This document shows positions 33,128 through 35,476 of a DNA stretch of 35,476 bases, one piece after another. Both the position numbers and the translations under genes were made by a program. The DNA is taken from contig DVJQ01000025.1 in the NCBI GenBank assembly GCA_018716625.1, positions 1 to 35,476 of the forward strand, written 5' to 3'. The stretch comes from Candidatus Galligastranaerophilus intestinavium. GTDB lineage: Bacteria; Cyanobacteriota; Vampirovibrionia; Gastranaerophilales; Gastranaerophilaceae. Each line of letters begins with the position of its first letter. Positions within the stretch are counted from its first letter, which is position 1. The notes below the pieces were generated by a model, which was given only the letters and a program-made list of their open reading frames with translations, had not been told where the DNA came from and made no database searches.

Positions 33128-33330
33128 GTCGACGTGGCGGCAAGCGCGAAGACGTGGAGTGCGTAGTTCATATCTACCATTTCGCCACCGAGACAACATT
33201 AAAAATTGAATAACATTATTTTGTCGACGTGGCGGCAAGCGCGAAGACGTGGAGTGCGTAGTTCATATCTACCATTTCGCCACCGAGACAACATTGAAAA
33301 TTGAATAACATTATTTTGTCGACGTGGCGG
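33128..33330 (+). repeat. 95-bp tandem repeat made of tRNA-Leu fragments
   Basis: Two copies (33128-33222 and 33223-33317) are identical except for one base (A at 33201, G at 33296). A third start (33318-33330) is the first 13 nt of the real tRNA-Leu gene. Each unit begins GTCGACGTGGCGG, the tRNA 5' end. It also contains, in reverse orientation (33169-33188 and 33264-33283), a degenerate copy of tRNA-Leu nucleotides ~7-26 matching at 16 of 20 positions. It ends in the AT-rich leader that also precedes the true tRNA. Forward and inverted tRNA pieces can pair (GTGGCGG with TCGCCAC, flanked by GTC/GAC), so each unit folds into a long hairpin. Confidence 0.9.
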
Positions 33331-33398
33331 AATGGTAGACGCGCATGCTTGAGGTGCATGTGGAGAAATCTGTGGGGGTTCAAGTCCCCCCGTCGACA
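33318..33398 (+). tRNA. tRNA-Leu (anticodon GAG)
   Basis: An 81-nt class II tRNA without encoded CCA. The acceptor stem GTCGACG/CGTCGAC is perfectly paired. The D arm contains GGCGGAATGGTAGA. The anticodon stem CATGC/GCATG encloses TTGAGGT, anticodon GAG at 33351-33353. There is a long variable arm, and the T arm GGGGG-TTCAAGT-CCCCC is canonical. The discriminator is A, as expected for leucine. The gene is the integration site of the element to its right. No clear promoter was found; it may be made from its AT-rich leader or by readthrough from fabF. Confidence 0.97.
33374..33398 (+). other. Putative attachment site (attL core) in the tRNA 3' end
   Basis: An integrase gene lies directly beyond the 3' end of tRNA-Leu and is transcribed toward it, the usual arrangement for tRNA-targeting elements. 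The core is expected within the T arm and 3' acceptor. The matching attR lies outside the window, so the exact borders cannot be set. Confidence 0.5.
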
Positions 33399-33433
33399 TT
33401 ACTTAAACCCAAGCTGGACAGCGTTTTGGATTT

Positions 33434-34505: not shown

Positions 34506-34679
34506 TTATGACGCAATAAAAACTTTAATTTCATCAATTTTAACGTACCAAATTGAACCGATTTGTTTAAAACAATTCGCTGGTATTGTTCCGTTGTTTT
34601 TCCAATCATAAATCGTGCTTACGCCTCGACCAATGGCTTTTGCAAATTCTTTAATTGTCATAATGTTGAACATATTCAT
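34506..34679 (-). CDS. Small HTH protein, probable excisionase/recombination directionality factor
   Basis: A 57-residue protein with a MerR-like/HTH_17 fold: MTIKEFAKAIGRGVSTIYDWKNNGTIP gives the helix-turn-helix and the following IGSIWYVKIDEIKVFI the wing and last helix, as in AlpA and excisionase families. The ATG at 34679 is chosen because AAAGGA lies 5 nt upstream; the frame extends to 34703 without a ribosome binding site. The position, first in an operon with int and opposite a repressor, supports a role in excision or as int activator. Confidence 0.85.
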   Translation of the reverse strand: MNMFNIMTIKEFAKAIGRGVSTIYDWKNNGTIPANCFKQIGSIWYVKIDEIKVFIAS

Positions 34680-34710
34680 AAATATCCTTTCTTTTTTGTA
34701 CATCTTTTGC

Positions 34711-34780
34711 CGAACGTGTTCGTCATATTATATTTATACAACATATTTTTTGTTTTGTCAAGTTTTGTCGAACGTGTTCG
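34711..34780 (-). promoter_or_regulatory. xis-int promoter flanked by two repressor operators
   Basis: On the minus strand TTGACA (34756-34761) and TATAAA (34733-34738) have a 17-bp spacer. Identical operators CGAACGTGTTCG (arms CGAAC and GTTCG) lie at 34711-34722, just past the expected start point, and at 34769-34780, 7 bp upstream of the -35. Binding at the first would block initiation or clearance. Confidence 0.85.
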
Positions 34781-34809
34781 TTATTTAAGTATTAAATTAC
34801 ATTATTTTC

Positions 34810-34857
34810 CGAACAAGTTCATTTTTTCTTGACACGTAACGGTTAAAAGAGTAGTAT
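34810..34857 (+). promoter_or_regulatory. Repressor promoter with third operator
   Basis: TTGACA (34829-34834) and TAGTAT (34852-34857) have a 17-bp spacer. The operator variant CGAACAAGTTCA (34810-34821) lies 7 bp upstream of the -35, the same distance as the second operator from the opposing promoter. One changed base in the last position suggests weaker binding, as in autoregulation. Confidence 0.8.
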
Positions 34858-35355: not shown

Positions 35356-35385
35356 AAGATTAATTTTTACGTTAATCTTTATTTT
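35356..35385 (+). terminator. AT-rich hairpin after the repressor gene
   Basis: AAGATTAA (35356-35363) and TTAATCTT (35372-35379) form a perfect 8-bp stem followed by TATTTTC. It overlaps the stop codon of the convergent gene. The remaining gap (35298-35355) shows nothing else. Confidence 0.5.
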
Positions 35386-35476
35386 CAGCTGCCTCTATCG
35401 ACGTTTTAGGAACTATTTTTAATTTACAGTCGAATAAGTCAAGAATTTCTATTACCTCAGATAGTTGAAATGTTGC
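35372..35476 (-). CDS. C-terminal end of an unidentified gene, possibly an HTH regulator
   Basis: An open frame on the minus strand enters from the window edge and ends at a TAA (35372-35374), giving 34 residues: ATFQLSEVIEILDLFDCKL, then KIVPKTSIEAAENKD. The LSEVIEILDLFDCKLKIVPK stretch resembles the last helix and strand of short XRE-type HTH proteins, such as antitoxins and phage regulators. Only the C-terminus is visible, so this is tentative. Confidence 0.5.
   Translation of the reverse strand, partial: ATFQLSEVIEILDLFDCKLKIVPKTSIEAAENKD

Follow-up and report, generated by a model that had tools for sequence, protein, structure and literature searches.

The window, a stretch of 35,476 bp that makes up an entire contig of the genome of the uncultured gut bacterium Candidatus Galligastranaerophilus intestinavium (G000), ends 179 bp after the gene of a predicted 138-aa repressor. 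This gene is read rightward, a divergent pair of genes coding for a small xis-like protein and a tyrosine integrase (xis and int) is read leftward and points at a tRNA-Leu(GAG) gene, and a second HTH-like gene is cut by the contig end (Table 1). Translation of xis more likely starts at the ATG at 34679 than at 34703, the start of the longest open reading frame, because AAGGA precedes the former. The convincing Pfam matches of the repressor are to HTH families only, the protein having ~50 further residues, and no peptidase domain was recognised, in agreement with the initial annotation, which had described a repressor devoid of a self-cleaving domain. A SinR-like C-terminal dimerisation/antirepressor domain was considered and rejected: the full-length profile search hit SinR (1b0n, 3.7e-6), and the C-terminal part alone found none at E up to 10. 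A structure predicted for the repressor without relatives had a mean pLDDT of 66, too weak for a fold search.

Table 1. Features of the control region, of the adjoining genes and attachment site, and of related loci (positions refer to the window unless a locus is named)
Feature	Position	Strand	Description and support
tRNA-Leu(GAG), attachment site	33317..33399	+	ARAGORN, Rfam tRNA
attL core	33378..33398	+	GTTCAAGTCCCCCCGTCGACA, 3' end of the tRNA; second copy on G000:C65:13486-13505 (-)
int, tyrosine integrase, 344 aa	33462..34496	-	Pfam Phage_integrase 1.5e-20; PHROG integrase 1.3e-35
xis-like small HTH_17 protein, 57 aa	34506..34679	-	HTH_17 9.1e-7; PHROG excisionase 2.7e-7
O1	34711..34722		CGAACGTGTTCG, perfect CGAAC-N2-GTTCG, just downstream of the predicted xis-int promoter
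P_xis-int (predicted)	34733..34761	-	TTGACA 34761-34756, 17 bp, TATAAA 34738-34733; consensus match 11/12
O2	34769..34780		CGAACGTGTTCG, perfect CGAAC-N2-GTTCG, 7 bp upstream of the xis-int -35
O3	34810..34821		CGAACAAGTTCA, 1 mismatch, 7 bp upstream of the repressor -35
P_rep (predicted)	34829..34857	+	TTGACA 34829-34834, 17 bp, TAGTAT 34852-34857; consensus
HTH_3 repressor, 138 aa	34881..35297	+	HTH_3 1.4e-13; TTG start, AAAGGAG upstream
Second HTH-like gene, 3' end	35372..35476	-	DUF6471-like; cut by the contig end
Second divergent module	L022:3285-3740 and L060:4880-5090		DUF6471-like 93-104-aa HTH gene opposite the outward operon
Complete tRNA islands	L061:661-7124 and L024:339-6969		One with a HigB-type toxin and repressor, the other with a DNA invertase-type resolvase

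The initial annotation had proposed three operators on two divergent promoters, both with a TTGACA box and a 17-bp spacer. Both promoters are predicted by consensus as claimed, and the three sites (O1, O2, and O3), two perfect palindromes and one with a single mismatch, stand where they had been placed, all inside 111 bp and with the same distance between site and -35 at either promoter. O1 begins 10 bp past the -10 of P_xis-int, i.e., just beyond the expected transcription start, and by the consensus promoter it would form the first transcribed bases of xis-int, ahead of the likely xis ATG. The weaker third site beside the repressor promoter also finds support, O3 of an island from a different genus (G275, CGAACTTGTTCA) having the same terminal A deviation as O3 of the window.

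Exact copies of CGAAC-N2-GTTCG occur only twice in the whole genome (1,755,909 bases), as O1 and O2, and the three operators account for 3 of its 16 motif sites with ≤1 mismatch. With ≤2 mismatches allowed, the window holds no excess of the motif (7 sites observed vs. 7.9 expected from shuffles); the signal lies in the exact copies and their clustering, not in the count at this threshold. An untargeted search for the best family of three palindromes, run on 230 bp that surround and precede the start of the repressor gene, picked out precisely O1, O2, and O3, with a score that none of 40 dinucleotide shuffles reached. Across the four genomes that carry the element, 15 of the 217 columns of the control region vary, none of them among the 30 columns of the palindrome arms. 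As judged from the sequence, the 138-aa repressor very probably binds these three look-alike sites and would thereby keep the island locked in the chromosome.

The Gram-positive LexA box is a CGAAC...GTTCG-like palindrome with a 4-bp spacer, and the resemblance of the three sites to it invites the reading that they are host SOS boxes tying excision directly to DNA damage. However, the spacer here is 2 bp, both exact copies in the genome belong to the element, and the box in the host lexA promoter differs (TGTACAATTGTACA in G000 and G010, TGTACAATCGTACA in G007). Identity of O1-O3 with LexA boxes is ruled out by the TGTACAATTGTACA box, and a direct link of this kind to the SOS response is exceedingly improbable.

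Assignment of the sites to the repressor encoded next to them can be examined in related islands. Near-identical copies of the repressor gene are present in G006, G007, and G010, and matches at E up to 1e-8 were found in 20 of 286 genomes of the order, from 8 of its 50 genera; in the loci whose open reading frames were listed, these relatives adjoin an integrase gene. The three-site layout, in which O1 directly follows the xis promoter, O2 precedes its -35 and O3 adjoins the repressor promoter, is found again in islands with repressors of 21-54% identity, and P_xis-int occupies the same position in relatives. Geometry was compared at 8 loci, 7 of them independent (G007 is near-identical to the window), which were chosen since their sites could be assigned, the other loci inspected being without a confident three-site assignment. 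Among these 8 loci, the centres of O1 and O2 are 45-59 bp apart, O2 lies 4-8 bp from the xis -35 in every case, and O3 lies 1-9 bp from the repressor -35 in 7 of 8. In the eighth (G134:C2), O3 falls inside the repressor promoter, and the autoregulatory arrangement is therefore not uniform. The island of G004 has two sites, not three. When the untargeted three-palindrome search was applied to 16 loci, 6 outscored at least 39 of 40 shuffles, five with this layout and one (G263) with another; the 10 that did not rise above the shuffles include G140, which was cut at the wrong offset and whose sites were found afterwards by pattern.

Repressors with the helices S(I/L)GVISDLE and SLAVINDLE accompany CG(A/T)AC-N2-GT(A/T)CG sites (G000, G275, G134:C1, and G140), from which O3 of the window, O3 of G275 and O2 of G275 (ending in ACC) deviate. 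The recognition helix GTAVISDLE of G086 goes with CGAAATCGTTTC-like sites, which were picked by eye, and SKSLLSAFE of G168 with AAGTGGACGTCCACTT-like sites. In this co-variation, which was assessed by eye at a few independent loci, the site differs where the helix differs and the position stays, as is expected of operators of the neighbouring repressor. The comparison thus supports the view that the palindromes are operators of the adjacent repressor.

The element to which this region belongs has the 3' end of the tRNA at both of its ends and the integrase gene beside one of them, as a tRNA-targeted island does. On contig C65 of the same genome, the second copy of the attL core consists of the 21-bp core with the rest of the tRNA absent, and beyond it lies a flank of ~149 bp that in a related genome (G014; 88.6% identity) directly adjoins an intact tRNA. 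The same tRNA is free of the element in G014, so that the two genomes form an occupied/empty pair, in which the shared flank extends over ~149 bp only. Beyond this flank, C65 matches the corresponding piece of G007:C23 at 93% identity over 3.3 kb. The probable far end of the element is G000:C65:13300-24924 (L084), and the two pieces of the element sum to ~13.5 kb, the middle between them being unassembled. The element is 96-97% identical between host species vs. 78-82% for fabF of the same species, which fits recent transfer. Just before the tRNA-Leu gene, positions 33202-33330 hold a tandem partial duplication that includes the first bases of the tRNA (a 34-bp repeat 95 bp apart); the same duplication is seen with other spacing in G010 and G007.

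Ten open reading frames of the far end were scanned, and among them are genes for HigB and its HTH partner, AbiH, type I HsdM/HsdS, a DUF6338 protein, and a SoFic-like Fic protein. HsdR was not seen among the ten; the island of G275 has one, and a ResIII helicase family search of this genome for the missing HsdR returned 9 places. No conjugation genes were recognised among the 10 far-end proteins. The contigs of all four element-bearing genomes end 0.2-2.5 kb past the repressor (G000:C4:35476, G010:C10, G006:C12, and G007:C4), and the missing middle could therefore hold genes that change the picture. A break in all four assemblies would be expected if this region differed between strains or existed in several forms. 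Two relatives with the same kind of switch, those of G134:C2 (6.3 kb) and G004 (6.6 kb), are complete, with direct repeats of the tRNA end (45-49 bp) at their borders. Their PHROG matches comprise regulators, a HigB-type toxin, a DNA invertase, a RecE-like C-terminal segment, and unknowns, and no head, tail, terminase or lysis family was found in 9 + 9 non-switch open reading frames, a scan that left out one 99-aa frame of G134:C2 as well as overlapping or antisense frames.

These contents bear on the name given to the control region in the initial annotation, that of a compact lysogeny switch, which is not supported: the visible part of the element and the two complete relatives point to small tRNA islands that carry defence and toxin-antitoxin genes, and phage structural genes were not recognised in them. 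A true prophage switch, in which the 138-aa protein would be a CI-like repressor and the structural genes would lie in the unseen middle, would accord with the divergent arrangement of repressor and int, with the matches of the switch genes to phage repressors, excisionase and integrase in PHROGs, and with the unassembled state of the middle. It is nevertheless quite improbable, given the absence of structural or lysis families from the frames scanned in the complete relatives and the restriction-modification, AbiH, HigB and Fic genes of the far end; moreover, the operators would drive xis-int and not a cro-like early operon, the far end has no further motif site except one match with 2 mismatches, and no relative was found among the IMG/VR viral contigs. 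Phage and plasmid collections gave distant matches only, none above 60% identity: 31 phage records matched, none of which covered 80% of the query in a single place, and 74 plasmid records, 4 of them covering 80%.

Small tRNA-targeted islands with a non-cleavable repressor are also reminiscent of phage satellites of the PICI/SaPI type, in which the region would act as a master switch and a protein of a helper phage would remove the repressor. A SaPI-type Stl is indeed among the HTH matches of the repressor family in a PDB profile search, although this match spans the HTH only, and no packaging or capsid-remodelling gene was recognised in what was scanned. In SaPIs, int and the repressor gene stand together, opposite to xis, an arrangement unlike the one described here, and we consider a satellite origin unlikely. 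The region is probably the excision and integration control switch of a non-phage integrative element residing in tRNA-Leu(GAG) of a Candidatus Gastranaerophilales bacterium.

The genes that extend outward from this switch appear to have a regulator of their own. The small HTH-like gene that comes next, complete in G007 (93 aa), is divergent from an outward operon in G007, G006, and G275, and GTAGCYATATRGTTAC-type palindromes, read by eye, are located in or next to both promoters. In G010, this second module is present as a different allele with different sites. Relatives thus reveal some of the unseen part, in which the initial annotation had placed a candidate antirepressor: the four genes past the repressor of G007 code, according to Pfam, for a DUF6471-like HTH protein, two proteins without a convincing match and a DUF6876 protein. 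The initial annotation had suggested scanning the rest of the element for additional CGAAC-N2-GTTCG sites; in the 1.7 kb beyond the repressor of G007, none was found at ≤2 mismatches. Since no outward site was seen in this stretch, and in the far end only the single 2-mismatch match, control by the 138-aa repressor is probably confined to excision and its own expression, separately from the outward genes, and the outward operons are probably under the second small regulator with its own palindromes.

The closest described case, by analogy of layout, is the ImmR/Pxis switch of ICEBs1 in Bacillus subtilis, and the same working would be expected here. ICEBs1 sits in a tRNA-Leu gene, and its repressor is element-encoded and without a self-cleaving domain. 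The arrangement of an ICEBs1-type switch, an XRE repressor gene opposite a divergent promoter from which xis is read first, is also found in the window. According to the published account (PMC9956884), ImmR represses Pxis and acts on its own promoter first as an activator and then as a repressor via operators of different affinity, the ImmA protease acts as antirepressor by cleaving ImmR, Pxis drives the replication and conjugation genes, and expression follows entry into a repressor-free cell. Relative to ICEBs1, the likeness lies in the several operators at both promoters, which by sequence are present here as well, and the differences are threefold: int comes after xis in one operon and is read toward the tRNA, Pfam recognised no ImmA-like protease gene among the four genes after the repressor of G007, and the outward genes seem separately regulated. 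Divergent promoters with several operators, and a regulator acting on the main promoter and its own, are likewise described for RcoLS20 in a report on conjugation control in plasmid pLS20, together with overlapping promoters and looping to a distant operator (PMC4207663). Unlike in the RcoLS20 switch, the promoters here are separated and all sites are close together. Multiple palindromic operators and non-overlapping divergent promoters are shared with the CI/Cro-type switches of temperate phages, of which they are typical, but no cro-like gene stands opposite the repressor, no peptidase domain was recognised, and the element is not a phage as far as visible.

On this basis, a dimer of the 138-aa HTH_3 protein would occupy O1 and O2, which flank P_xis-int, and switch this promoter off; with neither Int nor Xis made, the island would stay integrated. 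The weaker O3, when occupied, would adjust the level of the repressor. The initial annotation had proposed autoregulation from this site, which is plausible, although its sign is not given by the layout: O3 lies upstream of the -35 of P_rep, a position that also allows activation, and from which we would guess that it activates. Upon entry into a repressor-free cell, or whenever the repressor falls, xis-int would be turned on and the island would recombine at the tRNA; the simplest trigger may be that no repressor is present on entry into a new cell. The outward genes would probably answer to the second small regulator through its own operators. The principle is familiar from other mobile elements, and the putative switch is well supported by comparison.

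In the open-licence literature, no title was found on such islands in Gastranaerophilales or Melainabacteria. Tentatively, Gastranaerophilales may harbour lineage-specific small tRNA islands with defence and toxin-antitoxin genes, in which a three-operator excision switch of near-fixed geometry and fast-diverging operator sequence would be gated separately from a second, DUF6471-like outward switch, with a new kind of inducer such as a helper phage or host signal. As for mechanism, the switch confirms a familiar principle. It offers a testable control region and a natural repressor-operator series in which nearly the same geometry is kept as the sequence drifts, in a lineage represented here by metagenome-assembled genomes, and it suggests that defence genes may travel on small tRNA islands in Gastranaerophilales.
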